From Styela clava (Eukaryota; Chordata; Ascidiacea; Stolidobranchia; Styelidae): a stretch of DNA of 64,000 nt. The notes under the pieces are model-generated. The model made no database searches and was not told the origin of the DNA. It saw only the letters and a list, made by a program, of their open reading frames with translations. Each line of letters starts with the position of its first letter. Position 1 is the stretch's first letter. The translations under genes were made by a program, and so were the position numbers. Of this stretch, positions 915 through 31,020 are shown piece after piece. Location of the stretch: positions 8,871,001 to 8,935,000 of the forward strand of contig NC_135254.1 of assembly GCF_964204865.1 (NCBI RefSeq), in the 5' to 3' direction.

Positions 915-1011
915 AGCCTGTTGGTCCATGGCGATCGATCGCAATGACTTGTGTAAAAAACTGAAACATGCTGAACAGAATCGTGAGAAGAATGAAATTT
1001 GTATTTGCCAA
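915..1011 (-). pseudogene. relic signal-peptide exon of the secreted-peptide family (copy A)
   Basis: On the minus strand this 97-base stretch reads as a signal-peptide exon like those of the intact family members. It has 32 codons beginning Leu-Ala-Asn-Thr-Asn, a hydrophobic core, a likely cleavage site after VIA, then IDRHGPTG and a phase-1 donor (GGCT|gtacgt). The two intact minus-strand genes (24.9 and 31.0 kb) use the same gtacgt donor and phase. A good acceptor (ttttcacag) lies 20 bases upstream. The expected ATG is TTG, so the start is lost or supplied by an upstream exon; the frame upstream of the TTG is open to the acceptor. I could not find a convincing second exon. The gene is either dead or starts from an unseen exon. 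Confidence 0.55.
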
Positions 1012-2108
1012 TCTTGATATTTGGTTATTGACTGTGAAAATTGGCCTTTTCCTGAACAAAGAATCATTTTTTACGAAAAAATAAATCTTGTTAGAAATAT
1101 ATTGACTGAAGGTTTCTTCGAATATTTGTGAGAACTTCAAGTGGATATTATCATGTACCCTATTAGCTTGCATGGAGATCAATACAAGAAATTTATTTAT
1201 TGAAAAATTTTGGTTCAGTTGCTAGCATTAGGAAACAACTAAAGTGGTTATATATGGAATATTCTTAGTTTTTAGGTTTTTAAACTTCGTGTGTGTTAAA
1301 CAATAAAAGGTTTTAGCATTGGTCTTGAAAAAACATTTGAAACATTTTACAAATTTTCGTCTAGTAAAGACAATTACTTCAATCCTGATATATTTTATCC
1401 TGGATAACAAATACTATGTTCATATCTCACTTAAAGTTTCTGGTATTTGTAGAAATGCAGGCTGCAGATTCCGAAAATCTAGGCGACTTATGAATGATAG
1501 AAATAATATTATATTCCAGCATTATATATAGCTTTGAGATTCAGATAACTCAATTAATGAGGTAAAATACCCTCGCATTTTGAGGTAGTCAATCTCATAA
1601 AGCTGATAAAGGATATGAAATTTAACAGTATTTCCAGTTATAGTTTCAAATTTTTCTAATCGCATTCTTTATCCTTTCGAAATGAAGGTATGTGCTTGGA
1701 TTACACTGATTTGTGCAATTCGTCGCCATTAAGCTGTTTCCGTAACGCGTTGGTTTTCCGGTTTAATTTAGTCGTAAATATCAATCACAAATATAATTGA
1801 TAACGCTGTTGACGCTTTTGAGTTCCTGGAGGCTCCGAGGAGAAGTGAATAGGGTCGAAGTAGAGAGTTTTTTGAGGTTTAAGTTTGAAAGATTAAAAGC
1901 AGGGACTTGACGATGGATTTGAAAAAATAAATCTTAAAGTGTTGAGACAGTGGGTTCAGGATAAGTTTGTAAATATTTGACTTTAAGTAACAACTCGAGC
2001 AGCTTATACAACACGTTATCAGAGACAGATTTAGTACAATCGTTTTTTCTTCAAATTAAATTATATTTTTCAGTAAAATTCAATTTACAAGAAAAAGAAA
2101 AACTAACA

Positions 2109-2606
2109 ATGGCAAATAAAAATCTCTTTCTTCTTATGACTGGATTTCTGTTTGTTATATTTCTAATCATCATGCAAGACAATGCGCAAAGAAAAACCGC
2201 CTGCTGCAGGCAGTACGTAGTGGATGTTGGACTTTGTCAAATGCTGTGTGTATATTCGAATGTTTTCTCTAGATTTAAATGTTTTCTGTTTAAACAATAT
2301 CATTCGTAAGCGCAATATCTTGATAACATTTTGAAAAAATCATACCTTTTCATCTCTTTATACTTTTTTCACTAGTAACACAGGTGCTGGATGTTGTTTA
2401 ATTTATCCAGCGCTTATTATTCAAACAAACGTTGATCACTTTGAAAAAAAATTAAAACTCGTTTTATCTAATTTTAGTTGTTGATAGAGACATTTGAAAT
2501 CTACCGATTTTGGCTAGAAGTAAGTATATGAAAAGTTTGTTATTTATTACGTTCAAACAATTGATTCTTATCATTTTATTCACAGTACCTTGATGATATA
2601 GCCTGA
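2109..2606 (+). CDS. small secreted four-cysteine peptide precursor, copy A (3 exons)
   Basis: I do not recognise this gene. Exons are 2109-2249, 2478-2519 and 2586-2606, all phase 0, giving 67 residues and a TGA stop. Residues 1-27 are a signal peptide (long Phe/Leu/Ile core, likely cut after DNAQ). The mature part has Cys32, Cys33, Cys43 and Cys47 (CC-x9-C-x3-C), then a 14-residue acidic/aromatic segment from exon 2 and a YLDDIA tail from exon 3. Borders look strong: TGT|gtatat, ttttag|TTG, GAA|gtaagt, cacag|TAC. An acceptor (tatttttcag) lies 35 bases before the ATG. Exon 2 is 42 bases and phase-neutral, so skipping it would keep the frame and give a 53-residue form. The MANKNLFLL start resembles the relic exon at 1011 and the peptide genes at 24.9 and 31.0 kb. 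Function is unknown; a secreted defence or signalling peptide is an inference. Confidence 0.6.
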
Positions 2607-3220
2607 AACGTCATAGTTAGGCATTATTCACCCATATTATTACTACATAGGTGATCTGGAGAAAATGGGTTTTGAAACCGAGATGTCTTACCTTCCACGC
2701 CAAGATTGCAAAGATAAATGCTTTAATTGATATGACATCCGTTCAGCTTCTCTCAGAGGTGCTGCTTGTATTGATTGTCATCCATTACCTTTCAACCGTT
2801 TCCAGAGCGGACTTTTTCCGGTTTAAATCTTCAAGTTTCATTGCAGTCGATAAATCAAACGACCGGAAAGATCTCCTGCAGATCTTGTATTTTTCAATCC
2901 TTATATATGTAAAGGTAGTGAATTCACTGAGATATAGGTTCGAAAGCTGAATGAGAGATGCGGTAATGAATTCGAAAGTCTGGAAGACAAGTCAAATTTT
3001 ATTTTTCCAACCTGAACCTCGATGCTATCGATAATAAGGTTGCCGAGAGTGGAAGTCAGGTTTAAAGGTCAAATAGGAAGAATGCGCTTGTTTTTTCAGA
3101 AGAAGTTGTAATCTCAAAAAACAGATAAATAAAATTGTTAGAGCCTTTTGATGAGCAAATCATATCGTAATGTCGCTGTATAAATTTGGCGATCTAGTTC
3201 AAAATACTTTGATGAAGAGC

Positions 3221-3530
3221 GTCTATGGCCTAGCGGTGAAAGGGCGAGACTTATTCGCAGATTGAATTGATGTTGCATGCAATCAATCAAGCTTCAAATA
3301 TGGGATTCAAAAAAATATATTTTGATACCAGCGACGTAAGAGTTGAAAAAATTATTCTCTACAAATAGCACGGTTTCAAAATTGTTGTTGAAAAGCCGTA
3401 GCCTAATTTGTTTAAGATCTCAAAGGTCAGCTATATCCTAATGAAAAGGTTTTTGCTAAAAATCGACACGTATAATGGCACAAGTGATGACATCGCAGAT
3501 TAAAAATTTCGGGCTCAAATCCCTCCTCCT
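3221..3530 (+). repeat. tRNA-like SINE head, split by a 229-base insertion (copy A)
   Basis: A pol III A box TGGCCTAGCGG matches the consensus exactly and begins near 3229. A B-box-like GGCTCAAATCC lies near 3512. The two are a normal tRNA distance apart only after removing 3264-3492. That insert is flanked by the 9-base direct repeat tcgcagatt (3255-3263 and 3493-3501), so it is a target-site duplication inside a tRNA-derived SINE or tRNA relic. The SINE body may continue to about 3770. It is not a working tRNA. Confidence 0.6.
3264..3492 (+). pseudogene. NAT8-like last-exon fragment inserted in a SINE (copy A)
   Basis: The plus strand reads as the middle and end of the last exon of the acetyltransferase encoded at 5464-7399: LHAINQASNMGFKKI, DTSDVRVE, HGFKIVVEKP, then YILMKR. 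There are in-frame stops near 3367 and 3400. It begins abruptly inside the exon, carries no intron, and is bounded by 9-base target-site duplications. A truncated retrocopy or captured exon piece explains this. It predates the large duplication because copy B has it too. Confidence 0.8.
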
Positions 3531-3985
3531 CCACCCCACCCAGAGTATAATAAATTGGGTAAGTAATGCCGACCTGGAAAAATTCCGGTTCTTGTGAATA
3601 AATAGTAGATTCCTTACACATCCTTAGATATTAGTGGATCCTTGTACAGGGCTTTGTTTGGATCGAAAATCACATATGGTATACAATGCCTCCATGGCGA
3701 CTCTGACTGACTTTGGGACTTTACTAATGTTTCAGATTCCCTGCTATCCACTGGATAGTATCCAGCCATTTGGGCAAAAAATAATTGTATAATTTTGTAA
3801 AATTAACTTCGCCTATTACTTGAGAACATGCAAATAACATCATTTATTGCAACGAAAATTTTATAGATAGATACACAGACATTTGTGGTAACTTGCAGTT
3901 ATAATATTTGTTTAATAAACTGATGTTTTTGTTATAAATTTAAATTTAAGAGAAACTTTACATAAAATCAATAGTTTGTTCAACA

Positions 3986-4592
3986 ATGGCTAGTACTTAT
4001 CACCTGTATGCTGTGATTGCACTGATGCTTTTTACATTTATCTTCTTTGTGCAAGTTGACGCGAAACTTACAAGACTACCCAAACAAAGCTGTAAGGAAC
4101 CATGTATTATATTGTCTGTTGAACATATATATTTATTCTAATACATACTTTTAGAATTCCTAAAAAAATTGTTTAATTACGTAAATACATATGTCTGTTC
4201 AAACTACGTGCTGTAAATGCTTGTGAATAATTTTATTGTTTATTCCTAATATTCTGAAGCTTTTATAAAATCTCCAACATCATATATATACGACTGACTA
4301 GCGTTTAATTTCTCTATTTTGCGGATTCACTCATAACACGGAAAAATTACTGATACCATTTTCATTGACGATTAAACTTTAACACATGTTTTTATTTTAG
4401 TATCTGATTCAGATAATTGGCTCAGCTCCGACTCAATTCACGGATAGTACGTATTTTTTGTTTTGTATTTTTCAGTGTTTACATATTTAGTTGATACAAT
4501 AAAAATAGCATTAGTATATACATAATGAAACTATAAAACTTTTTTTATCACAATTATTTGTCACCAGTAACATAAAGATTTTTAATTTCAGG
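3986..4592 (+). CDS. small secreted peptide precursor with C-terminal Gly, copy A (3 exons)
   Basis: I do not recognise this gene. Exons are 3986-4091, 4401-4446 and a terminal exon from 4592; the TAG stop is formed at the second junction, and reading through the intron gives the same stop. The precursor has 50 residues. Residues 1-26 are a signal peptide cut after VDA. The mature peptide of about 24 residues starts KLTRLPKQ, continues with an SDSDNWLS segment and ends in Ser-Ile-His-Gly. A final Gly is the usual donor for C-terminal amidation. Exon 2 is 46 bases in phase 1, identical in length and phase to exon 2 of the genes at 24.9 and 31.0 kb, and shares the pattern SDxDxxLS...G. An AG acceptor sits 33-35 bases before the ATG. 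AATAAA follows near 4748. Function is unknown. Confidence 0.7.
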
Positions 4593-5463
4593 TAAACCTC
4601 GATTTTCTTCATGTTTTATCTTCATTCATCGTGCTAATAAAATTAAGTTAATAAATTAGCAGAATATTCTATATGAGATATAATTTGCATTGTCATTATA
4701 ATTGCAAACATGAACTATATTTAGACAATTTTGTAAAATGCGTTGCAAATAAACTTTCATTCTTACAATATTACAGGGCGGAATAAATCTATTTTGAATA
4801 TTTAACTTCATCCTGGCTTCAGATTATTGTTTGAAAGCAAATATATACAATTAATGTGAACGTTTCTTGCTTTTTTATTGTTATTCTAGTAGTATGCGGA
4901 CAAAAAACGCGATAATACTGAATATTTCCTCCATTACCGGAAATCCCATAATATGACGCTGACAAAAAATTTTCAAAATTTAATAAACATATTTTCAATT
5001 AACATACTAGTTTCAAAAAATCAGATAACACAAACCTATTTGAGCGTGACAGCTGCTTAAAAGTTGTCATACCAAAAATAAGCAATACATAATATCAATA
5101 TGAAAAAGAAAAGATTTAGTTACAATGGGCACTACATGCATTGACACTCATAACATATAAATTGTCTACATACTATATTGGTCAACTACAACAGTTTAAT
5201 TAATAAGATTACAGTTTTGATTTCACTAATATGATTTCATATCCTACTCGCAAATTGAAATTTGATATAGAACATTTCGGTATTGTTAAATTCGTTTTCA
5301 CCAATTATACAACAAAAAACAGAAAGCAATAATTTTTTAATTACTTTGACAAAAATAAATAAGATTTATTCAATGCTTGCATTTCTGTTTGTAAATGATT
5401 TTACCCCAATTTAATTTAGGACGCTTTGCTTGTTTTTTGGGTCACCTTGTACTATTAAACCTG
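4593..5463 (+). other. 3' UTR of peptide gene and AT-rich spacer
   Basis: The first about 160 bases are the likely 3' UTR of the peptide gene, ending after AATAAA near 4748. The remainder is AT-rich, without coding signal, up to the 3' end of the converging acetyltransferase gene. Part of this stretch (about 4658-5060) recurs at the A/B junction, 12697-13112. Confidence 0.5.
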
Positions 5464-7399
5464 TCAATTTTCAGAAAGGATCTTTTTCATTAGTATATAG
5501 TTGACTTTTGGAAACCTAAACAAATTAGGCCACGGCTTTTCAACCACAATTTTAAAACCGTTCTTTTTATACAGATTTATTGCTTCAACTCTAACGTCGC
5601 TGGTATCAAGAAATATTTCTTTGAATCCCATATTTAAAGCTTGATTGATTGCATGCAACATCAGTTCACTACCAATTCCACGACGTCTTGCATGATTCGC
5701 AACGTACATTCTCTGAAAATGAAAAAATTAGAATTCACATTGTGTAGTAAAGTTAAGTTAATAACGAAGTAGCTGACTTACTTGCGCAAAGTGCGAATGG
5801 AAGGTCAGGAAAATTTATACCGAGTCGCACAAGCATGAATAAGTACAACATAAATTTCGTATGCTTGGGATATTTGACTCATTTTTGCTAGGCTTGAACC
5901 TCCCCCTTTTTCATCTTAACATAGAAGGCAGTGTTTTAAAATTGCAAAATATGGATGATATCCAAAATTGACTAAAACTAAGACTGATTATGGAATGAGT
6001 TGTTTATACCAAGTTCTTTATCTTTTTTTGTCTAAATTCACACTCACTTCCAAAGATACTGCAGAAGACTTGCAATCCGGAAAGTATGACAAGATTGAAT
6101 CAGGTAAATGATAAAGTGCGATACATCCAGCTATTTTCCAATCTCGTTTTTCTTGCATTTCAGCAACCCAGAATCCTATATAGTCTGCTTTGCATCCAAT
6201 TTCCTTTTTTAAATCTTCTGGTAAATATCGCCTCATATATTTCCGAAACGAATATATTCCTGAAAGCATAACGGTATATATTAGATAGTTTCTTCCTTTG
6301 TTGACTATTTGACAGTTTTCAGTTGTGTTTCTGATTTGGATTTAGGTACAAATCTGAATTTAGGTACCATTTAAACATCTCAATGGTAATTTGTCTTGCG
6401 AGGATTTTCAGGAGTTTCAGTTTAGTTGCAACAATCAAAACTTGACTGGAACTAGCTAATAGCGAGCTTAAAAAACAAGCAGTTAAATATTTTAAATTAA
6501 ATGAAGGTAAGGGATAAACCAGTTTGAAAGCGCTATCACGAAAGAGCACTCTTAAAATAATAATAAACCTAAAATTGTTGCAACTGTAGTACAAGAAGAT
6601 GTTTCCTGCGGCCAAGGGTCTGGGAAACATCTTTCAATTCCACAGTTTTGCAGCTGGGTTAAGCTAATTTTTATCATCCAGAGCAATTTATATTTGAGTC
6701 ATATCTTTTAGCAAACGGCTTTTGACTATTTCAAGTTTACATTTGGAGAGAACAGCGAGAAAAATAAATGTTACTAAAATAGAAACATATCAAAGTATAA
6801 TCACATAGTCCTCGACTCACCTATTAGTATCAATATAGCAGTTTCAAAAGACCAAACTACAACAAAAGTCAATAAACTGTTTTTATCAATCATCCAAGAA
6901 GTGAGAAATGCAACAATAGATATCCATCCCTGAAGTTAAAACATTTTAAGTGCGTATGCATGTGTTTTTTAGTAATTGCTTATTACAGATTTTTTTTTGT
7001 GGCACTGTACATTCATTCATAAAGCTATTTTTGATGCTGTTTGCTCAAGAATACGGTCAGGATTATACCAACCATACAAGAATATTTGAAAAATATTTTG
7101 TCCATGTATAAGTATTCCAGTAAGTTGATCTTGCCATCGGACCTGTTTATTGCAATTGTAGTTCTCTCTAAAATAAATTCACTTGGCGATTTTGTAGGAA
7201 TGATAGTCTAAATTCTTGATAGTGTATTTAAAAATATCAGATACATTTAACTATATTTTCCACCAACTTGTAGCTTCCAACTGCCAAAAAGCGAAGACCT
7301 ACTGGCTGTACATCCACGATTAAACATAGAATCAACAATAAGTTTGTATATGAATTGTCTGTCCTCCGTCAGTAATGCACGAATACGGAAATCTACCAT
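5464..7399 (-). CDS. NAT8-like membrane N-acetyltransferase, copy A (5 exons)
   Basis: A GNAT-superfamily acetyltransferase of the NAT8 type, which moves acetyl from acetyl-CoA to an amine and sits in the endomembrane system. Exons (minus strand) are 7399-7264, 7167-7055, 6929-6821, 6259-6042 and 5712-5464; phases join cleanly to 274 residues. Residues 1-45 are the N-terminal strand-helix (MVDFRIRALLTEDRQ). Two hydrophobic segments follow (about 74-96 and 102-119), as in NAT8. The catalytic part has FWVAE, the acetyl-CoA loop RRRGIG (201-206), then LDTSDVRVEAINLYKKNGF, the classic GNAT motif-B end. The exon 2 donor (ACC|gtattc) is weak, so that border is the least certain. Substrate is unknown. 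It converges on the upstream peptide gene. Confidence 0.85.
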
Positions 7400-8050
7400 G
7401 ACGTTACAGGTGTTTTGTTAGATTTGGTTACTTAATTAAGTGACTGAAAGAATACCACGTATTTATATATAGTGTAGGGACCAACTGGTTGGATGAATTA
7501 TGTAAATAGACGGAAATTTTTGAAGTAAGTGGTCCGTTCTATGCTTGGTAGATACTTCTTGCAATATAGCCTATATTAGTATTCCTAATTAACACATTCA
7601 GGCGATGTTAAAATCGTGAATCGTATTCTATCGTGAAAATCTCTGTTATAACTTTCCACTCTTAGAAGTTTGTTAGCGTCCTGCACAGTTGTAACCCTGC
7701 TCGTAGACAAGCTGCTTATAATGCTTCAAATACTCTCTCTAAATATATATTGACAAATCCTTGCCATTTTACCATGCTTACATAGCGACATGTAAAATGC
7801 AGTTTGACATAAAGAACGGGCGTTAATCATTAACCAATACAAAGTCAAACACAAATGTAGTATAGAGCTCAAAATGATCAAATGGGGATTACTATTTTTG
7901 AGAATTTCGTTCATATTTGATGGTGAATCAAATCGTAGTTAGACTGTGACAATTTGATAATATATTAACTGAGAAATAAATAAAATATGAATTAAGGAAT
8001 AAAATATAAATTAAGGAATAAAAAAGAGTAGGCATCGGTAGTATATGACA
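7400..8050. other. noncoding, upstream of acetyltransferase A
   Basis: No gene is visible. The first few hundred bases are the presumed promoter of the minus-strand acetyltransferase. The sequence is shared with copy B, with small differences. Confidence 0.4.
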
Positions 8051-8575
8051 ACAAATATATAAGTCAGAAGATATCCATCCATCATAGTATACAAACTAAG
8101 TAAGTCCAGCGGTTCGTTGAAAACGGTGAACGTCATGAATCGATCTCAGATTTGGCAGAAGCTACACGAAATATTTGTTATGAAATAACTTCCTTGTGAC
8201 TAATTTAAGATGTTCCCAACTTCGCCAAACCACCAGATCGTCACCGCGCAACCCCAACGAGGGGCACATTTTTTAAAATTTAGATGACTTCATCGCACAC
8301 AAATAAAAATCCTTTATAACCCTCAGAAATCATTGAAATAGAGAAAAATACAATCTTTAATTACTAAAAATTTCAAAGCAATTGGTCCAGTGTTTAATGA
8401 AAGAGGCGATTTTTTATGTCAACGATAATGACATTGAGAAGAATTTCACTTGAAAGTGAAAACTTATTCCATAGAGCCCACGGATGTTTTTAAAACAATC
8501 TTTAACCACTGAAAGTAAATCCATAGGTAAAGAGAAAACGATTTCACAATAATACCTCAACTGCAAAACACGCAA
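8051..8575. mobile_element. dispersed repeat inserted in copy A only
   Basis: Copy B lacks about 525 bases at the corresponding point (near 20860), where flanking sequence is otherwise collinear. The insert contains the motif aaatttcaaagcaattggtc, also found at about 21314 and 30045, so it belongs to a dispersed family. Ends are approximate and I could not establish a target-site duplication. Confidence 0.5.
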
Positions 8576-9315
8576 AATTTCGTGTCCAATAAATAAATAG
8601 GACAAATAAAAACAGGTCATAATATGTCGCGAGTCATGTACAAACGACACGGTGGTATCTGTAAATAAGATCAACTGAACATGGTAAACAATTTCAAAAA
8701 AATCAAATAAAAACGGAATCTCATATAACTTTCCATGTTAAAATATATTACATGCTTTTTGTATTTAATAACAATAAATATGTATATATATATATATCGA
8801 TATTCCCTAATCCGGGGTACTAATCAGAAATACAAATTATAAGAAGATATATTCTTTAATAAAACTTTGGTCCCGAACCTGCATATTAAGACCCGGCAAT
8901 ATTTGACGGGATATTTTCTCCCGTAATGAACTCATGCAAGTACAACTTAAATGAACTTCCACTAATATTTAAAGTTATAATAATACAAAACATTTCTGAC
9001 ATCCGCAAAAGTCGAATCACAATATTTATAGTTATCTAAATGTATTGAAAATCAATTGTTATCTTAATGGAGATTTCAGATTTACGTGAACGTTTATAAA
9101 TAATACGCAAATATGCAGTGTAAGTAGAATGTGCTTGATAATTTTTGGCCAATATCTCTTAAGCCTTCCCACATTGATAAACGTTTCATATACAATCTGA
9201 CAAAACTTTAATCCCATCGTAATTCGTAAGTTAATAATATCTACTTGGAATAATCTTGGAAGCCACTATAAAAAATAAAAATAAATTCAGAATTTTGATA
9301 AATGGACCTTCTATA

Positions 9316-9915
9316 GATACAGCCATTGTACATATACATCCATCCTTGCGATACAGTCATTCAGTAGATAGACCCATACTGCAAGTACATCCATTCTGCA
9401 GATACAGCTATTCTAAAGATACTGCCATTTTGCAGATATAGTCATTCTGCCTATAAAGCTTTTCTACAGATACATCCATCTGCATGTACAGTGAATTTGC
9501 AGTTGCATCCATTCTGCAGATACAGTCACTCTTCAGATACTGTCAATATGCAGATACAATCGTTATGCAGAAACAACCCTTCTGCAGAGACAGCCACTCT
9601 GCAGGTAGAGCCATTTTACAAATATAGCCATTTTACAGATACAGACATTCTATCAACACAGCCATTCCGTATGTAGAGCCACTGTGCAAATACAGCCATT
9701 TTGTAGATACAGCTATTGTGCAGATATAGCCATTCTGCAGATACAGCCAATTCTTCAAATACCGCAATCTTCAGGTACACCAATCTGCAAATACAGCCAT
9801 CCTGCAGTTAAGGACATTTGCAGGTGTAGCCATTCTGCAGATATAGGTATTTATACAGCTGCAGTCATTTTGCAGGTACATCGATTCTTCAGATTCATTC
9901 ATTCTGTCTGTACAA
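9316..9915. repeat. 17-base minisatellite (copy A)
   Basis: Degenerate tandem repeats of a 17-base unit close to GCAGATACAGCCATTCT. Because 17 is not a multiple of three, open frames run through it with a 17-residue periodic pattern (QIQPFCRYSHS-like). These frames are by-products of the repeat and not genes. Confidence 0.9.
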
Positions 9916-10094
9916 ACCTATGTCTTACGTTTAATATCAACGCGTAGACGTTTGTTCTCTCGTTCTCTCGTATGACGCTTCTACGTTGTAAGTTTGTACT
10001 TTATTTTCTCGTAGTTTCAATCGTTACTTTATTCATTATATTCAATTCGTATGTATTGCTTCACTTGCACAGTACATAAACCTGAGTTGACTTG

Positions 10095-11723
10095 TATGGT
10101 GGCCCATCGTTGTCACGCTTAAAATTGAAAAAAATAAAATAAAAAACTTAAAATAAAAAAATAATTGTGAAAAAGCATTTAAATAAAATAAAAATAAAAT
10201 GCAAAAAAAAAATTAAAAATAAAAACGAAAATAAAATAAAATTATAAAAAAATTATGAAAAAAAAACGTGAATAAAAAAAAAATACGAATGTTGACAACG
10301 ATGGGCCGCCTCGTGGCCCATCGTTGTCACGCGTTTTTATTTTGAGAAAATTTGCTACGGCTTGGGACCAACGTTGTCATGCATAATTCTACTCGCACAA
10401 ACGGTGTTCCCTGGGTTTGTCATTGACATGGTGGTCGATATAATATATTTTGAAATATCGCAGACATCGATCCAAAGTACTCAAGCCCTAACCATATCGC
10501 GCATTGTCTCTTCTTAGGAAATTAAGCATTCCTTGTCTTTTTAATCCGTCTTGAACGTATCTCTTCACCGCAGCTTCCAACTGCTCATCATGTTTCTACT
10601 CGTCAGACATTTTTAGATATGATCTCAAATGTATCGATATATCTGTAAGTCTTTTAAATAAACAATCAACATGTTATTAAAGTAGTATATTCACTCTTGA
10701 TATGAAACCATTGGGCCTTGGACGTTGCCATAATATTCAAGCCTGTTTGTTGTCTACTAAAGATTATCACATCAGACATGCAGACATTTAACACAAGAGT
10801 GAGTTTGTTGGGTAATTTGAATATTGATGTTCGAACATTCAACTATTACGGTACTTGAATTTATTTAGTCTCGCGCACGGTAGGTAGTCTATCTGTCTAT
10901 AACAACATCTAACTTATAATTTATATATCCACAAAAATTTATTTTGAAGTTAGGTTTAAGGAGCATCATTATCAGCAAAAAAGTTTGACGCGCCATTGGC
11001 TGTACCCTCATGACAATTACAATAACCGGTACCATGCTGGTAATTAATATTACGCACAACCTGTAACTGGCTGCGATCAATCCATCCCTCGATTCACTAT
11101 ATTCTACTAGCTAGACTATCCGTATCTCCCATTCGTTTCTTGATTGATTGCATGGGTACAGGTACTGTCAGACGGTACCGGTATCGCGAGAGTGCCCGGC
11201 CAGCTGAGCAGCATTCTCCAATTCAATTACCTTCTACACGTGAAAACAAATTTCCCGTATTTTCGTACTCAATTCTATATTCTCTTATCATTATTATAAA
11301 TATATTACTTCTAGTTGAACTTGTAGCATGGACAATTTATGAATTTATAGAACATTTTCGTTTTGAATTTATTGAATATTGCTCAATAAAATCAGTAGTG
11401 AGTTAGAAAACCAGGAAACACCGTTTGTGCGCGTAGGATTATGCATGACAACGTTGGTCCCAAGCCGAAGCAAATTTTCTCAAAAATAAAACCGCGTGAC
11501 AATGATGGGCCACGAGGCGGCCCATCGTTGTCAACCTTTGTATATTTTTTTAAACACGTTTTTTTTTTTTTTTTTTATAATTTAGTTTTTATTTTATTTT
11601 CGTTTTTATTTTAAATTTTTTTTTTCTCATGTTTTTTTCACAACTATTTTTTTTATTTTACTTTTATTTTAATTTTTCATTTTTTTTTTTCAATTTTAAG
11701 CGTGACAACGATGGGCCACCATA
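10095..11723. mobile_element. 1.63-kb foldback DNA element, private to copy A
   Basis: Both ends carry long, nearly perfect inverted arms beginning tatggtggcccatcgttgtc and running about 300 bases. Inside each arm the GGCCCATCGTTGTCACGC motif recurs in both orientations, so arms are themselves palindromic. Copy B has the empty site (gagttgacttgtatctgaac near 22785). Comparison shows a direct duplication of gacttg (6 bases) at both ends; up to 9 if tat is counted with the target. The roughly 1-kb core has no convincing protein. Superfamily unassigned. Confidence 0.9.
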
Positions 11724-11799
11724 GACTTGTATCTGAACACTTGTAATACACAATTGCACCGTTAAAGCGTTGTTGATATTTCCGACGGTTCTATTACAT

Positions 11800-12010
11800 T
11801 TGTACATTTACAACATACGTACATTTGAACCCGTAATTTCAACCCAAGACAATTGCACCTGCATATTATTGAACCTATGGACATTTGTACCTACGTATAT
11901 TTGAACTATACTAACACTAACCCGTGAATTTTAGCACCCGCATATAGATTGAACCCGCGGAGGTACGGATGCAAATGTATGGGTTCAAATGTACGTGGGT
12001 TCAAATGTGC
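11800..12010. repeat. short degenerate repeat tract (copy A)
   Basis: The tract contains many variants of gtacatttgaaccc, in both orientations. It is matched at about 22850-23075 in copy B. It looks like a simple, partly palindromic satellite without coding content. Confidence 0.6.
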
Positions 12011-12480
12011 TGTCACCATTTTCGACTGTTTTATGTTGTATATTGGGACAACAGAAAAGCTGAGTATTTTGCCAGTATTTTAAAGACAGTTCAATAGTTG
12101 TTTAGCGAGGAAGACGGTCATTACTATTACTCTCGATCGCCGTCGCCTTTAAACCCCGCTACGTTACAAAATGTATTGACCAATGGGAACAGTGCAATCA
12201 AATATGATTGCAGTGTCCAATTGAGTAATATGAAACCTCATATTTTCGGGTTTATACTTGATATAGGAAAAGAAAAATTAAAATATACTTGAATAAAGAT
12301 GTATAATGCGCCATTAATTCTCATGGCGATTACAAGAATCTTGTTTGTTTTGTCAACCGCATCACCTAGTGGCGGTTTACTACTTCAGACATTCGACGGA
12401 GAGCGCTTACATTGTCGCCGCGATGTTCGCTTACTCCTGAATGAGGGAAGAGAAATTTTGAATTTATCTTGTTAGCTACT
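12010..12480. repeat. dispersed repeat segment (copy A)
   Basis: This segment is matched at 23080-23535 in copy B. A piece around cctagtggcggtttactact...gcttacattgtcgccgc also recurs in reverse complement at about 32236-32325, so it is a dispersed element. Type unknown. Confidence 0.5.
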
Positions 12481-12696
12481 TATCGCTGAATGATTTTGAA
12501 ATTCATTTTTTTAGGGTTTTGTTTTTTATTGTTATCGGCTTTAAACAATTTTCAATTTTACGACGTAATCGAAATGAATGTGTAAATTAGAATCCTTGCG
12601 AGGAAATGGCGGCGATGTCCACCACGCAACCGTGCAAAAGGTGTCGCAGCAATAAGTGACCCATGCATAAGATAAACCATGTCATAGAGCTAATGA

Positions 12697-13861: not shown

Positions 13862-13958
13862 AGCCTGGTGGTCCATGGCGATCGATCGCAATGACTTGTG
13901 TAAAGAACTGAAACATGCTGAACAGAATCGTGAGAAGAATGAAATTTGTATTTGCCAA
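13862..13958 (-). pseudogene. relic signal-peptide exon of the secreted-peptide family (copy B)
   Basis: This is the duplicate of the relic exon at 915-1011. It again has TTG in place of the start codon, the same gtacgt donor and acceptor, and Pro for Thr in the GPTG tail. The shared TTG shows the change came before the duplication. Confidence 0.55.
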
Positions 13959-15055: not shown

Positions 15056-15553
15056 ATGGCAAATAAAAATCTCTTTCTTCTTATGACTGGATTTCTGTTT
15101 GTTATATTTCTAATCATCATGCAAGACAATGCGCAAAGAAAAACCGCCTGCTGCAGGCAGTACGTAGTGGATGTTAAACTTTGTCAAATGCTGTGTGTAT
15201 ATTCGAATGTTTTCTCTCGATTTAAATGTTTTCTGTTTAAACAATATCATTCGTAAGCGCAATATCTTGATAACATTTTGAAAAAATCATACCTTTTCAT
15301 CTCTTTATACTTTTTTCACTAGTAACACAGGTGCTGGATGTTGTTTAATTTATCCAGCGCTTATTATTCAAACAAACATTGATCACTTTGAAAAAAATTT
15401 AAAACTCGTTTTATCTAATTTTAGTTGTTGATAGAGACATTTGAAATCTACCGATTTTGGCTAGAAGTAAGTATATGAAAAGTTTGTTATTTATTACGTT
15501 CAAACAATTGATTCTTATCATTTTATTCACAGTACCTTGATGATATAGCCTGA
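15056..15553 (+). CDS. small secreted four-cysteine peptide precursor, copy B (3 exons)
   Basis: Exons are 15056-15196, 15425-15466 and 15533-15553, giving 67 residues with the same signal peptide, CC-x9-C-x3-C core and acidic tail as the copy at 2109. In exon 1 the only coding difference I see is codon 41: GGA (Gly) in copy A and AAA (Lys) here. Two adjacent base changes in one codon alter charge between the second and third cysteines, while signal peptide, splice sites and exon 2 are unchanged. The acceptor 35 bases before the ATG is kept. Function is unknown; expression of both copies would be needed to call this real divergence. Confidence 0.6.
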
Positions 15554-16474: not shown

Positions 16475-16929
16475 CCACCCCACCCAGAGTATAATAAATT
16501 GGGTAAGTAATGCCGACCTGGAAAAATTCCGGTTCTTGTTAATAAATAGTAGATTCCTTACACATCCTTAGATATTAGTGGATCCTTGTACAGGGCTTTG
16601 TTTGGATCGAAAATCACATATGGTATACAATGCCTCCATGGCGACTCTGACTGACTTTGGGACTTTACTAATGTTTCAGATTCCCTGCTATCCACTGGAT
16701 AGTATCCAGCCATTTGGGCAAAAAATAATTGTATAATTTTGTAAAATTAACTTCGCCTATTACTTGAGAACATGCAAATAACATCATTTATTGCAACGAA
16801 AATTTTATAGATAGATACACAGACATTTGTGGTAACTTGCAGTTATAATATTTGTTTAATAAACTGATGTTTTTGTTATAAATTTAAATTTACGAGAAAC
16901 TTTACATAAAATCAATAGTTTGTTCAACA

Positions 16930-17537
16930 ATGGCTAGTACTTATCACCTGTATGCTGTGATTGCACTGATGCTTTTTACATTTATCTTCTTTGTGCAAGT
17001 TGACGCGAAACTTACAAGACTACCCCAACAAGGCTGTAAGGAACCATGTATTATATTGTCTGTTGAACATATATATTTATTCTAATACATACTTTTAGAA
17101 TTCCTAAAAAATTTGTTTAATTACGTAAATACATACGTCTGTTCAAACTACGTGCTGTAAATGCTTGTGAATAATTTTATTGTTTATTCTTAATATTCTG
17201 AAGCTTTTATAAAATCTCCAACATCATATATATACGACTGACTAGCGTTTAATTTCTCTATTTTGCGGATTCACTCATAACACGGAAAAATTACTGATAC
17301 CATTTTCATTGACGATTAAACTTTAACACATGTTTTTATTTTAGTATCTGATTCAGATAATTGGCTCAGCTCCGACTCAATTCACGGATAGTACGTATTT
17401 TTTGTTTTGTTTATTTTAGTGTTTACATATTTAGTTGATACAATAAAAATAGCATTAGTATATACATAATAAAACTATAAAACTTTGCTTGTCACAATTA
17501 TTTGTCACCAGTAACATAAATATTTCTTAATTTCAGG
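16930..17537 (+). CDS. small secreted peptide precursor with C-terminal Gly, copy B (3 exons)
   Basis: Exons are 16930-17035, 17345-17390 and a terminal exon from 17537 that completes a TAG stop, giving 50 residues. The signal peptide is identical to copy A. The mature part reads KLTRLPQQG in place of KLTRLPKQS, then the same exon-2 segment ending Ser-Ile-His-Gly, so the C-terminal amidation signal is kept. Changes cluster at the end of exon 1. AATAAA follows near 17687. The acceptor before the ATG has shifted slightly (tttacgag here, tttaagag in copy A) but an AG remains. Confidence 0.7.
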
Positions 17538-18331
17538 TAAACCTCGATTTTCTTCATGTTTTATCTTCATTCATCGTGCTATGAGCTAATAAATCAGCAG
17601 AATATTCTATATGAGATATAATTTGCATTGTCATTATAATTGCAAACATGAACTATATTTAAGACAATTTTTTAAAATGCGTTGCAAATAAACTTTCATT
17701 CTTACAATATGACAGGGCGGAATAAATCCATTTTGAATATTTAACTTCATTCTGGCTTCAGATTATTGTTTGTTTCATGTTTGAAAGCAAATATATACAA
17801 TTAATGTGAACATTTCTTGCTTTTTTATTGTTATTCCAGTGATATGCGGACAAAATTTTCCAAATTTAATAAACATATTTTCAATTAACATACTATTTTC
17901 GAAAAATCAGATAACACGAACCTATTTGAGCGTGACAGCTGCTTAAAAGTTTTAACATAATCATACCAAAAATAGGCAATACATAATATCAATATGAAAA
18001 AAAAAATTAGTTACAATGGGCACTACATGCATTGACACTCATAACATATAAATGTCTACATACTATATTGGTCAACTACAACAGTTTAATTAATAAGATT
18101 ACAGTTTTGATTTCACTAATATGATTTCATATCCTACTCGCAAATTGAAATTTGATATAGAACATTTCAGTATTGTTAAATTCGTTTTCACCAATTATAC
18201 AACAAAAAACAGAATGCAATAATTTTTTAATTACTTTGACAAAAATAAATAAGATTTATTCAATGCTTGCATTTCTGTTTGTAAATGATTTTACCCCAAT
18301 TTAATTTAGGACGCTTTGCTTGTTGTTTGGG

Positions 18332-21048: not shown

Positions 21049-21443
21049 TAACAAGAGAGCTACGTTCAAATATATGGACACGTCTGTTCGCAGTACAGTA
21101 CGGTTTACCGTACCGTCAGATCACAGTCTACAAATATATTCACACCAAGCGAAGCAGTACAGTAGGACACAAAATGGCGTCCGATGTCCGTAGAACGTTC
21201 AGTGACGTCATAGCAAACAAAAACAAATCTCACAGAGCTAACAGATATATTCGAAATAAATAAAAGTGATATCCTTCTGGAGAAAAATTTCGTCTTTAAC
21301 CACTAAAAATTTCAAAGCAATTGGTCCAGTGATCAAAGAGAAAAGCAGTTTTTTTATATTTCCACTAGGTGTCCAAAAAGTGTCAAAGATCAACAAGTAC
21401 AACATAACAACAAAACAATCGTTATGTCCACTAAACGTGTCAA
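21049..21443. mobile_element. dispersed repeat inserted in copy B only
   Basis: Copy A lacks this segment. It begins gagagctacgttcaaatata and ends with cgttatgtccactaaacgtg. Both ends and the aaatttcaaagcaattggtc motif recur at about 29520-30175, so these are two members of one element family of roughly 0.4 to 0.65 kb. No coding capacity or clear inverted ends were seen. Confidence 0.6.
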
Positions 21444-21974
21444 ATACCAATATATATATATATCGATATTCACTAATCCGGGGTTCTAGTCAGAGGTACA
21501 AATTATAAGAAGATATAATCTTTAATAAAACCTTGGTCGCAAACCTGCATATTATGACCCGACAATATTTGAAGGGATAATATCTCCCGTAATGAACTCA
21601 TGCAAGTACAACTTAAATGAACGTCCACTAATATTTAAAGTTACAATAGTACAAAATGTTTCTGACATCCGGAAAAGTCGAATCACAATATTAATAGTTA
21701 TCTAAATTTATTAAAAACCAATTATTATATGAATGGAGGTTTCAAATTTACGGAACAATTATAAACAATACGCAAATATGCAGTGTAAGTAGAATGTGCT
21801 TGATAATCTTTGTCCAATATCTCTCAAGCTTTCCCACATTGATGCACGTTTCATATACAATCTGACAAAACTTTAATCCCACCATAGTTCGTAAGTTAAT
21901 AATATCAACTTGGAAGAATCTTAGAAACCACTATAGAAAAAAATCTTTTCAGAATATTGATAAATGGACCTTCT

Positions 21975-22612
21975 ATAGATACAGCCATTCTGCAGGTACA
22001 GTAATTCGGCAGATACAGCCATTGTACATATACAGCCATGCTTGCGATACAGTCATTCTGTCGATAGACCCATTCTGTAGATACAGCCATTCTGCAGATA
22101 CTGCCATTCTGCAGATATAGCCATTTTGCCTATAAAGCTATTCTACAGATACATCCGGGCCATCTGTATGTACATATGTGAATTTGCAGTTGCATCCATT
22201 CTTCAGATACAGTCACTCTTCAGATACTGTCAATATGCAGATACAATCATTATGCAGAAACAACCCTTCTGCAGAGACAGCCACTCTGCAGGTAGAGCCA
22301 TTTTACAAATATAGCCATTTTACAGATACAGCCATTCTATCGACACAGCCATTCCGTATGTAGAGCCACTATACAAATACAGCCATTTTGCAGATATAGC
22401 CATTCTGCAGATACAGCCAATTCTTCAAATACAGCAATTTACACGCTATCTTCAGGTACACCAATCTGCCAATACAGCCATCCTGCAGTTAAGGACATTT
22501 GCAGGTGTAGCCATTCTGCAGATAAAGGTATTTATTTCTATTTACAGATTTATACAGCTGCAGTCATTTTGCAGGTACATCCATTCTGCAGATTCATCCA
22601 TTCTGTCTGTAT
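21975..22612. repeat. 17-base minisatellite (copy B)
   Basis: Same GCAGATACAGCCATTCT-like unit as 9316-9915, with a different number and order of units, as expected for a tract that slips after duplication. Confidence 0.9.
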
Positions 22613-22849
22613 AAACCTATGTCTTACGTTTAATATCAACGCGTATACGTTTGTTCTCTGGTTCTCTCGTATGACGCTTGTACGTTTGTACTTTATTATC
22701 TCGTAGTTTCAATCATTACTTTATTCATTATATTCAAATCGTATATTATATTGCTTCACTTGCACTGCACATAAACTTGAGTTGACTTGTATCTGAACAC
22801 TTGTAATACACAATTGCACCGTTTGAGCGTTGTTGATATTTACGGTTCC

Positions 22850-23075
22850 ATTACATTTGTACATTTACAACCCACGTACATTTGAACCCCTAATTTGGAT
22901 CCACGACAACTGCACCTGCATAATATTGCACCTATGGAAATTTTAACCTATGGATATTTGAACCATACTAACTCTAACCCATGGATTTTAGCATCCGCAT
23001 ATAGATTGAACCCGCGGATATACGGATGCAAATGTATGGGTTCAAATGTACGTGGGTTCAAATGTGCTGTCACCA
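22850..23075. repeat. short degenerate repeat tract (copy B)
   Basis: Counterpart of 11800-12010: variants of gtacatttgaaccc in both orientations. Noncoding. Confidence 0.6.
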
Positions 23076-23079
23076 TTTT

Positions 23080-23535
23080 CGACCGTTTTACGTTGTATAT
23101 TGGGACAACAGAAAAGCTGAGTATTTTGCCAGTATTCTAAACAAGTCAATAGTCGTTTAGCGAGGAAGACGGTCATTTCTATTACTCTCGATCGCCGTCG
23201 CCTTTAAACCCCGCTACGTTACACAATATATTGACCAATGGGAACAGTGCAATCAAATATGAGTATCCAATGTCCAAGTGTCCAATTCAATAATATGACT
23301 CATATTCTCGGGTTGAAATTTGATATGGGATAAGAAAAATTAAAAATATACTCGGATGAAGATGTATAATGCGCCAGTAATTCTCATAGCGATGACAAGA
23401 ATCTTGTTTGTTTTGTCAACCGCACCACCTAGTGGCGGTTTACTACTTCAGACATTCGACGGAGAGCGCTTACATTGTCGCCGCGATGTTCGCTTACTCC
23501 TGAATGAGGTAAGAGAAATTTTGCATTTATCTTGG
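23080..23535. repeat. dispersed repeat segment (copy B)
   Basis: Counterpart of 12010-12480. The cacctagtggcggtttacta part also occurs inverted near 32300. Confidence 0.5.
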
Positions 23536-23924
23536 TAGCTACTTTCGCTGAATGATTTTAAAATTCATTTGTTTAGGGTTTTGTTTTTTATTGTTTTCGG
23601 CTTTAAACAATTTTCAATTTTCCGACGTATTCGAAATGAATGTGTAAATTAGAATCCTTGCGAGGAAATGGCGGCAATGTCCACCACGCAACCGTGCAAA
23701 GGTGTCGCAGCAATAAGTGACGCACGCACAAGATAAACCATCAAAGTGCCGATTTAATTTCATCGTCACAATACGCGCAGACAAAGCGCAAAAATTCGCT
23801 TGAAGATTATCCTCGAAAACGAAACACCGTGCTAACGACGGAAATTGTTGAAAATTATTTTATTCGGAAATATTCGAAAAGGTATTCGAATGTATTTAAT
23901 TCGTTTTGGACAACTCTGCTTTCG

Positions 23925-24049: not shown

Positions 24050-24980
24050 CCATTTATTTTGTAACTTTGTAGAACTTGACAAAAATATTGACCATAAATC
24101 AAAAATAAGAAAAAGATTTTCTTGCGACAAAATTAGTCATATTAAGTATGCGAAAATGATTTTTTTTTTTAGTATTTAGTTTTCAATGTGATGATTTATT
24201 TAAAGTCAGTAATAACAATATCCACACAAATACATTTTTCGTAGATACTACCAGTTATACGATTCAGAATAATACAAGAACATTGAAAACGATGATGATA
24301 ATCGATATTTACCTGAATTATAAAAAAATATTTATGTTAGCTTCAATAAATAAATATTGCATCCGATAATAAAGAACTGTTTGAGGTAATGTGGCTGATG
24401 ATTCCAGATCACAAAATGTTTTCACAAATGTTGAAAATTTCAAAGATATTAATGAAGAAATAAAATTCAATTAATGTTACAAAAAAGAACGCTAATGCAT
24501 TTTTTAATATTCTAATGTAAGAGAAGAATTAAAAGTTTTGATATACGTACTTTCCTTCAGAATTGACGAAGCTGAGCAGTGTATCTATATCAGAAACTGA
24601 AATAAAATATTTTTTGCTAAGTATCTTAATTAGAATCAGTGCTTGGTTTTATAAGAAAATCGTTATCATCTATTATATCAGTAAGTACATCCGTTATCAG
24701 TAAGCAGTGAGCTTATCACAATTAGTGATGACGATGACGTATTTGAATTTTAAATTGAACATAAACAACTAAACCTAAATAGAATCAAAAATACGTACAT
24801 CCCAGGGGAAGGTGAGGTGGCCCCCGTATGGTTCTCGCAGTCACTTCCAAAGAAAAGAGAATTGTAAGGAACATCAATGCAATAACAAAATGAAGAAATA
24901 CACTTATATTCGCCATTGTCAAAATATAATTAAATGCAAATAGAGATTTCCTGAAAGAAATAATAAAGTTCCATGCCCCT
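24050..24980 (-). repeat. duplicated block around peptide gene C
   Basis: This block is collinear with about 30130-31020: introns, exons, the ttgcatccgataataaagaa 5'-flank and 3' flank all match with moderate divergence. So genes C and D arose by a local duplication, older than the A/B one judging by more mismatches and small gaps. Confidence 0.75.
24309..24916 (-). CDS. small secreted peptide precursor ending Gly-Lys, member C (3 exons)
   Basis: I do not recognise this gene. Minus-strand exons are 24916-24799, 24596-24551 and a terminal exon from 24312 that completes a Lys codon and supplies TAA (ends 24309), giving 55 residues. The signal peptide (MANISVFLHF..., cut after EVTA) is followed by RTIRGPPHLPLG, then the exon-2 segment FSDIDTLLSFVNSEG and a final Lys. 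Gly-Lys at the very end is a typical amidation plus basic-trimming signal. Splice sites are strong (gtacgt, tttcag, gtacgt, ttcag). A 5' acceptor lies 34 bases before the ATG. Exon sizes and phases after exon 1 equal those of the 4.0- and 16.9-kb genes. Minus-strand AATAAA lies near 24200. Confidence 0.75.
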
Positions 24981-29100: not shown

Positions 29101-29233
29101 GTGTGAAGATACTCTCACGTATACTCGTTTGGGCAACCAAGCAGGAAAAGGATTTATTTCAAATCTCAGGCCAATTGTTAATCCGTTGGTCTACAGCTTG
29201 CAAAAGGCAAACTTTCTATGTATAATGAAATAA
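29101..29233 (+). pseudogene. possible GPCR seventh-helix relic
   Basis: A frame reads FISNLRPIVNPLVYSLQKAN before a stop. NPLVY followed by a helix-8-like stretch with Phe is what the end of transmembrane helix 7 of rhodopsin-family receptors looks like. No other receptor segments were found nearby, so this is at best an isolated exon or relic and may be chance. Confidence 0.2.
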
Positions 29234-29509
29234 GTAACATGAAGGTACCAGTTATGCATTCTCATTACTGTATTGTCAGACTAATGAGCCATTCGTCGAA
29301 AAAGCCAAAGATAATTTTTAACTCTGAAATGACGACTTTTTCATATTACTACCCAATAAGCCGAGGCAGAAAATTGCATTACTTTTTTTCTTTTCTCATT
29401 TTTTTAATTAGGCGCCAATAAGACTTCTGTTTTGGATAATATCAATTTTATTTTGTCTTCTCATTCATTTATTTTGTATCTTGGTATTACTTGACAAAAA
29501 TACTGACCA

Positions 29510-30180
29510 GATATCAAAAGCCAGAGAGCTATGCTCAAATATATGGAAACGTTTACCGATTCCAAGAAAAGCAGCAACATTTAAAGGCATCAGTTATAAC
29601 AGTGACTGCAAGCCCAGCTTTTACGAGACAGCTACGAGTTAGTGCAGTGTCACCGCGCTGTGTTACGGTACCGGAACTGCCCTATCTTCAGAAGTTCCTG
29701 TCTTGTGACAGCGTGTATTGAAATTGCAAGATGGTCCGACTCACAACTGTAGTAACACGAACGATCCGAGTTACTACTGTAATATAACACCAAGTACGGC
29801 ACTATTCGCCATTCACCATTCCTCAAATCTTAGCAAAGCCAGGATTTCGTTCGATGAACTATCGACGTTCGATGGCACGTGATCAAAAGAACATGAAGAG
29901 GAGTGCCAGCATACACGTCACAAGGTGTCGCTAATTTTTATTCTGACACATAAAAAACGAATCTCTTGAGTCCACAGAACTTTTTGAAATGGGTTAAAGT
30001 AATAGCCTTCTGGCGAAAAAATCAATCTTCAGCCACTGAAAATTTCAAAGCAATTGGTCCAGTATTCGAAGAAAAAAAGCGATTTTTTAATGATAGTGAC
30101 GAAGAATAATAAGAATAACAACAACATAATATTCAAACGATCGTTATGTCCACTACGTGTCCAAAAAGATTATCTTGCGA
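29510..30180. mobile_element. dispersed repeat, third copy of the 21.0-kb family
   Basis: Begins gagagctatgctcaaatata and ends cgatcgttatgtccactacg, matching both ends of the 21049-21443 insert, with a longer and different middle. It includes the aaatttcaaagcaattggtc motif near 30045. Confidence 0.6.
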
Positions 30181-31020
30181 CAAAATCAGTCATATTGAGT
30201 GTTCGAGTATATTTTTTTTTGTATATAGTTTTTATGCCATGCTTTATTTCATGCCAATAATCACAATATTCATAAATGCTACCAGTTATAAAATTAGGAA
30301 TAATACAAGAACATTGAGGACGTATGATGATAATCGATGTTTACCTGAATTATGAAAAAATACTTATGTTAGGTTCAATAAATAAATATTGCATCCAATA
30401 GTAAAGAACTGTTTGTGGGAATGTGGTTGATGTTTCCTGATCACAAAATGTTTTCACAAATGAATATTTTAATGTAAGAGAAGAAATAATTAAGTTTTGA
30501 TATACGTACTTTCCTTCAGAATTGACAAAGCTGAGAAGTGTATCTATATCAGAAACTGAAATAAAATATTTTTTTGCTAAGTGTATTCATTAGAATCAAT
30601 GCTTGGTTTTCTATAAAAATCGTTTTCGACTATTATCAGTAAGTACATCCTTTATCAGTAAGCAATGAGCTTATCACAATTGGTGATATTAATTCAGAAT
30701 GCTAGTAAACCATGAATTATGCATATTTAGAATAAACTAATTGTTTGTATGCATGTGAAGTTTTTAGACGATGAATTGAATTTTCAAAATTGAACATAAA
30801 CAACTAAACCTAAATATAATCAAAATTACGTACATCCCGGGGGAAGGGGGGGAGGAGGAGGTGGCCCCCCTATGGTTCTCGCTGTCACTTCCAAAGAGAA
30901 GAGAATTGTAAAGAACATCAACGCAATAACAAAATGATAAAATACACTTATATTCGCCATTGTCAAAATATAATTGAATGCAAATAGAGATTTTCTGGAA
31001 AAAACAATAAAGTTTAATTA
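30130..31020 (-). repeat. duplicated block around peptide gene D
   Basis: Partner of 24050-24980 (see that entry). It carries an extra insertion in intron 1 and a G-rich run on the plus strand at 30839-30862, which encodes the proline run. Confidence 0.75.
30341..30960 (-). CDS. small secreted peptide precursor ending Gly-Lys, member D (3 exons)
   Basis: Minus-strand exons are 30960-30834, 30556-30511 and a terminal exon from 30344 that completes Lys and TAA, giving 58 residues. The signal peptide is nearly identical to member C. The start of the mature peptide has become a proline run: RTIGGPP, six prolines in all, then LPPG. It is followed by the same exon-2 segment as C (FSDIDTLLSFVNSEG) and the final Gly-Lys. 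A 5' acceptor (ttttttccag) lies 34 bases before the ATG. Minus-strand AATAAA lies near 30248. Exon 2 is unchanged from C at the protein level while exon 1's mature part changed, so the C-terminal segment looks like the constrained part. Function is unknown. Confidence 0.75.

Follow-up and report, generated by a model that had tools for sequence, protein, structure and literature searches.

A window of 64,000 nucleotides (nt) from the ascidian Styela clava (C5:8871001-8935000; assembly of 376.6 Mb in 379 contigs) holds several very small genes, which a preliminary description, drawn from the letters alone, regarded as an unrecognised cluster of three-exon genes for secreted peptides. The locus raises the question of whether these genes form one family and, if so, which of their parts are kept, which change, and what the products might be for. 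We find that they belong to one family of 23 loci with a common exon layout, coding for a conserved leader, a short and diverging middle part (here called the head) and an acidic tail. Our preferred reading, held with moderate confidence and resting on sequence comparison, is that of a tandem array of short lineage-specific prepropeptide genes under birth-and-death evolution. Tunicates are the sister group of vertebrates, and the array would give a chordate genome a further secreted-peptide family, apparently an orphan one, whose 23 copies show what is kept and what is changing. Similarity searches find lineage-specific immune or signalling peptides only with difficulty, and tiny genes split over several exons are easily missed.

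A family of small three-exon genes

Exon profiles were built from the copies in the window and run over 314 kb, comprising 200 kb upstream, the window itself and 50 kb downstream. They detected 23 homologous exon-1 loci within 115 kb (C5:8786536-8901960), each with an expectation value (E) below 5e-12; eight of these lie inside the window. Weaker profile matches were discarded (C5:8869229, E 0.04; 8773850, E 0.11; 8716001, E 2.9; and all above E 3). Positions 915 to 30960 of the window, first given as the limits of the cluster, were too narrow, as the array actually extends about 85 kb upstream of the window. Sorted by eye, the loci fall into subfamilies A (four loci), B (four), C (two), D (three), E (two), F (one), G (two) and R (five), and an R-A-B module, with R and A divergently oriented, is seen four times in the array.

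Membership did not depend on any one subfamily. When each was left out of the DNA profile in turn (eight runs, with six near-duplicates also removed from training), all 23 loci were recovered at E 9e-22 to 8e-7, and the best other match across the eight runs was C5:8869229 at E 0.006. Exons with short flanks were also aligned between types and scored against 1000 order-1 resamplings. For exon 1, the A-B, A-C, A-R and B-C alignments outscored every resampling, while 39 resamplings did as well for C-R and 668 for B-R; for exon 2, A-C and B-C outscored all, and 26 matched A-B; for exon 3, B-C outscored all, and 374 and 842 matched A-B and A-C, respectively. The introns of A, B and C, in contrast, are alike at chance level only, with 206-485 of 500 resamplings scoring no lower in each of six comparisons. 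What A, B and C have in common is therefore their exons and splice sites. The closer types A and R align through intron 1 too.

Gene models rebuilt for B1, B2, C1 and C2 give spliced products of 50, 50, 55 and 58 residues, respectively (Table 1). They bear out the 46-nt phase-1 second exon that had been proposed for the types starting at 3986 and 24916, with GT donors and AG acceptors, as well as a stop made at or just past the last junction. Across the family, exon 1 measures 94-127 nt and has a length of 1 modulo 3 in 19 of the 23 loci, the others being A1 and A2 (104 nt) and R3 and R4 (95 nt); R5 is counted among the 19, yet its donor is lost and reads CT. Exon 2 measures 46 nt in B, C, E, F and R3/R4; in D it is nine nucleotides shorter (37 nt) and keeps the frame, and in A, at 42 nt, the frame is lost. 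The stop triplet occupies bases 2-4 of exon 3 in B1, B3, B4, C1, C2, E2, F1 and R4, as TAA except for TGA in F1, and the first AATAAA or ATTAAA after the exon 3 start follows at 44-112 nt in B1, B2, C1 and C2 and at about 540 nt in A1 and A2. In the E copies (L010 and L018), the same stop is spelled by the donor of intron 2 (GTAAGT) and by the start of exon 3 (GTAA), so that retention of intron 2 would leave the E protein unchanged. A reading of these loci as single-exon genes was set aside, exon 2 and the start of exon 3 being conserved together with their splice sites.

A copy counted as intact if it began with ATG, had an exon 1 of 1 modulo 3 followed by a GT donor, kept exon 2 in frame between AG and GT, and had an exon 3 that the profile detected; the 5′ acceptor discussed below was not part of this definition. 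By this measure B1-B4, C1, C2, E1 and E2 are intact (8/23 loci, and four of the eight copies in the window). D1 and D3 fail only on the profile-found exon 3, and by eye one follows a pyrimidine tract and AG. Other copies have an early stop in exon 2 (A3, A4), no exon 2 (D2, G1), a GTG start (G2), TG in place of AG at the exon-2 acceptor (F1), a lost frame (R3, R4), or the loss of a donor and an acceptor (R5). The two loci at 1011(-) and 13958(-), earlier taken for relics, are just that, with exon 1 kept, a TTG start and no exon 2 found. As for the six genes that had been called intact, the start codons at 2109, 15056, 3986, 16930, 24916(-) and 30960(-) stand, but they represent three types doubled by duplication. 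Diversification between these duplicates is not what we see: the A and B copies in the window are nearly identical, the spliced products of B1 and B2 (3986/16930) lying two residues apart. The A pair (2109/15056) and the B pair both fall inside one tandem duplication, and C1 and C2 form another duplicate pair, for which BLAST similarity starts about 20 nt before the ATG exon, at the pyrimidine tract.

The first ∼20 nt that follow the stop in exon 3 are alike in B and C through conservation, recognisable in E and F and partly so in R; beyond them, the likeness of B to C1 and C2 is at chance (386 and 430 of 500 shuffles). If exon 1 were spliced directly to exon 3, the exon 3 start would come into frame as a CKPR-like sequence. 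Exon 2 might serve as a switch: in those B, C, E and F copies that have phase 1, skipping it would swap the acidic tail for one that starts with CKPR, CKAQ, CEPR, CKYR or CKHR. Every gene would then yield a pair of peptides differing in their tails, and the conserved exon 3 start beside an unconserved remainder of the 3′ end would be explained. We consider such a switch improbable; a splicing or untranslated region (UTR) element is an equally likely reading of the conserved exon 3 start.

For A1 and A2, the preliminary description had proposed a 42-nt phase-0 exon and a peptide framed by cysteines, a model that did not hold. Its donor at 2217 is equalled or bettered by 47% of the GTs in the window, against 9% for the homologous donor GTACGT at 2213 (scores from approximate frequencies). 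Splicing A1 at 2213 into exon 2 leads to a stop two codons on, and the A1 and A2 products are identical whichever donor is used. A3 and A4, upstream of the window, have an exon 1 of 103 nt which reads QMKPPAAG and QRESPAAG, without cysteine, up to its GTACGT donor; their tails stop after six exon-2 codons. It is therefore the extra exon-1 base of A1 and A2, relative to A3 and A4, that makes the DNA there read as cysteines, and we conclude on sequence grounds that A1 and A2 are frame-broken. That the A copies nevertheless code for cysteines, through the 2217 model or an intron-retained peptide from 2109 or 15056, is very improbable: read without splicing, 2109 does give an open frame of 66 residues that include five cysteines, and 15056 does likewise, but A3 and A4, one base shorter, read PAAG instead, and the 2217 donor is weak.

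A splice acceptor had also been described 33-35 nt before the ATG, or 20 nt before it in the relics. A pyrimidine tract with AG does lie 34-35 nt before the ATG in C, where it is good, and in A1/A2, where it is fair, and an AG lies 20 nt before the start in R; in the 3986 type the site is degenerate. By eye, similar acceptor-like sites are present in E, F and G, with CTACAG in D and GAG in A3/A4. A strict acceptor pattern, scanned over the six ATG-starting loci of the window and leaving the TTG-starting relics outside, is passed by the two C copies only. The same pattern is passed by 5 of 120 ATGGC sites and by 121 of 2358 ATGs, and because about 5% of all ATGs pass, single cases mean little. 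An acceptor-like CAG also precedes the ATG of a presumed DUSP12-like gene (by 3 nt) and of folliculin (by ∼58 nt) in the window, so the feature is not special to the peptide family. Botryllus belongs to the same family as Styela. Spliced-leader (SL) trans-splicing is used by tunicates (PMC2760879) and is described in Botryllus (PMC3691228). From its pyrimidine tract and CAG, the C1 site 34 nt before the ATG is probably an SL trans-splice acceptor, a 5′ UTR intron being a possible alternative. A search of the window for the Ciona spliced leader (a 16-mer, up to two mismatches) gave no match; the gene for that leader is thus not in the window.

Genome matches of an A-gene DNA stretch are confined to the array span, as are those of a B-gene stretch. 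The D3 exon-1 protein gave 12 genome matches at E<=10, of which ten fall within the array and two lie elsewhere, at C17:5103799-5103882 (E 0.0016) and C5:13907637-13907726 (E 0.15). The exon-1 DNA profile also matches C5:13907637 (4e-12) and C17:5103799 (2e-5, over partial length), and the exon-2 and exon-3 profiles found nothing convincing beside either. The C5:13907637 locus (L035 1137-1236), with leader MINTKCCRFMIALMIMTILFFLQVSA, head ISAPPSG and a phase-1 GTAAGT donor, may be a family member 5 Mb from the array; C17:5103799 is doubtful as one.

Searches for relatives found none for the types covered. Protein-database searches covered types B, C, A and R: among 5.8 billion proteins, the B1 product met no candidate with three shared words, and alignment of C1, C2, A (two readings) and R against the same set left 22 candidates, of which not one reached E<=10. 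Six sequences (types A, B and C) had no Pfam match above cut-off, a PDB profile search gave two matches (E 1.6 and 3.5) that we take as chance, and viral contigs searched with the C1 product gave 21 pattern matches and no relative. No occurrence of six family peptide stretches was found in literature text, and, within the portions available of the literature surveyed by topic, no description of this Styela clava family was found.

Conserved leaders, variable heads and acidic tails

Signal peptides were judged by hydrophobicity and the residues at -3 and -1. Leaders show a hydrophobic core and alanine where cleavage is expected; at -3, valine is present in B, C and R and aspartate in A1. Twenty-one heads were tabulated, omitting the frame-broken A1 and A2. 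They span 5-15 residues; every one contains proline, none contains cysteine, and 17 of the 21 end in glycine. Their net charge is positive in nine (at most +3), zero in eight and -1 in four. Three chemical classes, namely a cysteine, a Lys/Arg-Leu and a proline-rich type, had been distinguished before; with proline in all 21 heads and cysteine in none, this division falls away, and a cysteine-framed defence or venom-like class was rejected, its apparent frame being the frame break described above. All 13 tabulated tails are acidic, with net charges of -1 to -5 (D tails cut at 12 residues). LSSD occurs in the tails of most B copies and of E and F, and B, C and F tails carry a C-terminal G or GK.

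The contrast between these parts is evident in the Nei-Gojobori proportions of non-synonymous (pN) and synonymous (pS) change, calculated for six within-subfamily pairs (B3 enters two of them; for heads there are five, as those of C1 and C2 differ in length). Leaders have pN 0.038 and pS 0.101 (pN/pS 0.38), heads pN 0.150 and pS 0.083, and tails pN 0.039 and pS 0.073, the tail value including codons of the A3-A4 pair beyond its stop. Non-synonymous change is thus about four times higher in heads than in leaders (Fisher p=0.0005), and likewise differs between head and tail (p=0.0025) and not between tail and leader (p=1); for leaders, non-synonymous against synonymous change gives p=0.019 (all on rounded counts). 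These values bear out a family of very small genes for presumed secreted peptides, in which the leader is conserved and the middle diverges. The further claim that leaders are alike while the mature parts differ stands for the heads, but the acidic tail, which had been counted with the mature part, is conserved within subfamilies like the leader. The heads thus change faster, through either relaxed or positive selection.

Between subfamilies (six pairs), leaders show pN 0.33 and pS 0.57 (pN/pS 0.58). In protein alignments of types B, C, A and R, leaders are equalled by 0-25 of 1000 shuffles and heads by 85-874 of 1000; the likeness of the B and C tails is equalled by 15 of 1000.

What the peptides may do

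Under the birth-and-death reading, transcripts would probably start at the SL acceptor ∼20-35 nt before the ATG. Exon 1 would supply a signal peptide ending in alanine and the short, fast-changing, proline-containing head, usually with a glycine at the phase-1 junction; the 46-nt exon 2 would supply the acidic tail, and translation would end at the last junction or just past it. The product would be secreted, and its acidic tail would probably be a pro-region that silences the head before cleavage, after which the glycine at the junction could donate an amide. The array would evolve by birth, death and probably conversion, like defence-peptide arrays, and the broken copies together with a near-identical tract in the window (see below) fit these processes. 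Sequence demonstrates the family, its gene structure and the contrast of leader and head; secretion, cutting, amidation and function are inferred. Host defence, taken on its own, is the leading function by analogy, which we put forward tentatively. The defence, venom-like and pheromone roles first suggested are conjecture, and nothing in these data points to venom.

In Mytilus, myticalins have a signal peptide, a Pro/Arg-rich mature part and an anionic C-terminal extension, with a phase-1 intron, gene clusters and pseudogenes (PMC12294457). Common to them and the Styela array are, in layout and with no sequence comparison behind it, the tripartite precursor (leader, variable middle, anionic C-terminal part), a phase-1 intron in the coding sequence, clusters with pseudogenes, and lineage specificity. 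Unlike the Styela heads of 5-15 residues, which are often neutral, mature myticalin parts have 17-47 residues and are strongly cationic (PMC12294457); myticalins also carry a dibasic site before the extension, absent from the Styela head/tail boundary, and their exon 1 is 5′ UTR with one intron in the coding sequence, whereas the Styela genes have two introns in or at the end of it. Since two defining myticalin traits, the strong cationic charge and the dibasic site, are missing here, while the tripartite precursor and the phase-1 intron are present, membership is not claimed.

Nearer by species are the clavanins of Styela clava itself, 23-residue helical peptides whose precursor has a 19-residue signal peptide and a 10-residue propeptide (PMC8719109). 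Clavanins and clavaspirin resemble the array genes, as we read the latter, in being small secreted precursors with conserved parts around diverging mature peptides and C-terminal amidation (PMC8719109); by eye, their sequences have no evident stretch in common with the heads. Styelins and botryllin are likewise ascidian prepropeptides from which a mature peptide is cut out of a longer precursor (PMC9966394). Botryllin differs, however, in its 158-residue precursor and its 37-residue, strongly positive, partly helical mature peptide (PMC9966394).

Several findings weigh against a defence-type prepropeptide array. Only eight of the 23 copies pass every structural test used, and the 5′ acceptor is degenerate in B, with AAG in one window copy and GAG in the other. 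Many heads are very short and non-cationic (EPRGPHSNG, 0; IDLPGAPG, -1; PPPAG, 0), which is weak for an antimicrobial. The spliced products examined have no dibasic site at the head/tail boundary, although B4 has Arg-Lys within its head. Non-synonymous change in heads is not significantly above synonymous change (p=0.76), so positive selection is not shown, and between subfamilies the tails show no purifying signal (pN 0.31, pS 0.29; six pairs). The substitution counts are small, and the pairs are not all independent.

Some of the same features can be read differently. The head, or head and tail together, could be a signalling, gamete-recognition or pheromone ligand, the variable heads giving specificity for a receptor or partner. 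Short proline-containing heads mostly ending in glycine, and the G or GK at the end of B, C and F tails, fit amidation, and heads that vary between a conserved leader and tail are consistent with this role. However, such heads have neither a dibasic release site nor a common repeated ligand core, one or more structural tests are failed by 15 of the 23 loci (by 13 when D1 and D3 count as intact), which is unusual for a needed hormone, and no Pfam family rose above cut-off in the six sequences scanned. A ligand role seems unlikely to us.

We judge it just as unlikely that the product is a small acidic peptide left uncut, its tail being active, for instance in binding cations or matrix, and its head a free spacer. 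Acidity in 13 of 13 tails, the recurrent LSSD, a within-subfamily tail pN as low as that of the leader and the boundary without a dibasic site all speak for an uncut product; against it stand A3 and A4, which stop after six tail codons, and the equality of tail pN and pS between subfamilies.

Somewhat less likely still is a decaying array with little or no present function, maintained by duplication and conversion. The low number of fully intact copies, the loss of frames, starts and splice sites in A, F, G and R, and the lack of a database protein for types B, A, C and R would suit decay. Yet leaders retain a pN/pS of 0.38 with non-synonymous and synonymous change significantly apart, head lengths change in multiples of three that keep the frame, and the stop triplet at the start of exon 3 is kept in five subfamilies.

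Duplications and neighbouring sequences in the window

Table 1. Features of the peptide-gene array, in positions of the window
Feature	Position	Strand	Remarks
Tandem duplication unit, in blocks	417..12680		Second copy 13377-23741
Near-identical tract	891..4453		R1 to end of B1 exon 2; counterpart ∼13838-17397
R1 relic exon 1	915..1011	-	TTG start; head IDRHGPTG; no exon 2 found
A1 exon 1	2109..2212	+	To homologous donor GTACGT; frame judged broken, apparent cysteines; one base longer than A3/A4
A1 exon 2	2478..2519	+	42 nt, 4 nt short of homologues
B1 exon 1	3986..4091	+	Leader of 26 residues, head KLTRLPKQS; phase-1 end
B1 exon 2	4401..4446	+	46 nt; acidic tail LSDSDNWLSSDSIHG; stop TA|G across last junction
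B1 exon 3 start	4592..4641	+	3′ UTR; first ∼20 nt conserved; AATAAA/ATTAAA-type signal from +44
R2 relic exon 1	13862..13958	-	TTG start; head IDRHGPPG; no exon 2 found
A2 exon 1	15056..15159	+	Sequence and frame break as A1
A2 exon 2	15425..15466	+	
B2 exon 1	16930..17035	+	Head KLTRLPQQG
B2 exon 2	17345..17390	+	Identical to B1 exon 2
B2 exon 3 start	17537..17590	+	With 3′ UTR
C1 exon 3 start	24240..24312	-	Completes last codon; stop TAA; 3′ UTR; AATAAA/ATTAAA-type signal ∼112 nt in
C1 exon 2	24551..24596	-	Tail FSDIDTLLSFVNSEGK; last codon finished, and stop, in exon 3
C1 exon 1	24799..24916	-	Leader of 27 residues, head RTIRGPPHLPLG
C1 5′ UTR	24917..24950	-	Pyrimidine tract and CAG acceptor-like site 34 nt before ATG
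C2 exon 3 start	30270..30344	-	
C2 exon 2	30510..30555	-	Two silent changes relative to C1
C2 exon 1	30834..30960	-	Head RTIGGPPPPPPLPPG

Within the first block of the tandem duplication, the tract 891-4453 stands out: its two copies differ at 28 of 3560 bases, against 245 of 3834 outside it. The log-likelihood gain for this tract is 94, whereas none of 50 permutations, for which a coarser scanning grid was used, exceeded 8. Gene conversion would account for the near identity, as would recent re-copying; an assembly artefact is a possible source as well.

A second set of repeats lies at 33199-40992, where a unit of about 2602 nt occurs in three tandem copies that are 99.7-99.8% identical; either this array arose very recently or it is an artefact of the assembly. 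At the end of this set (40887-42836) lie transposase-like remnants spread over several frames, including a Pfam hAT dimerisation match at 42234-42836. Searches of the window for tRNAs and against Rfam gave no match. Further on, a single-exon dual-specificity phosphatase gene (Pfam DSPc), which we take to be DUSP12-like, occupies 45553-46443(+). Folliculin is an uninterrupted single-exon gene at 51831-53306(-), identical at 99% over its full length to a 'folliculin-like' protein of Styela clava, followed among its matches by three unnamed proteins (57-66%) and then named ones from other ascidians (44-48%). A Cys-rich open frame at 58240-58575(-) looks antistasin-like by eye, with no Pfam match at 0.001. 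Between the peptide genes, acetyltransferase-like exon fragments were recognised by eye, repeated and inverted, at 5464-5727(-), 3263-3484(+), 16207-16428(+) and 18349-18533(-). Both copies of the duplication also carry a degenerate 17-nt minisatellite (9315-9906 and 21977-22524) with open frames of about 100-136 codons.

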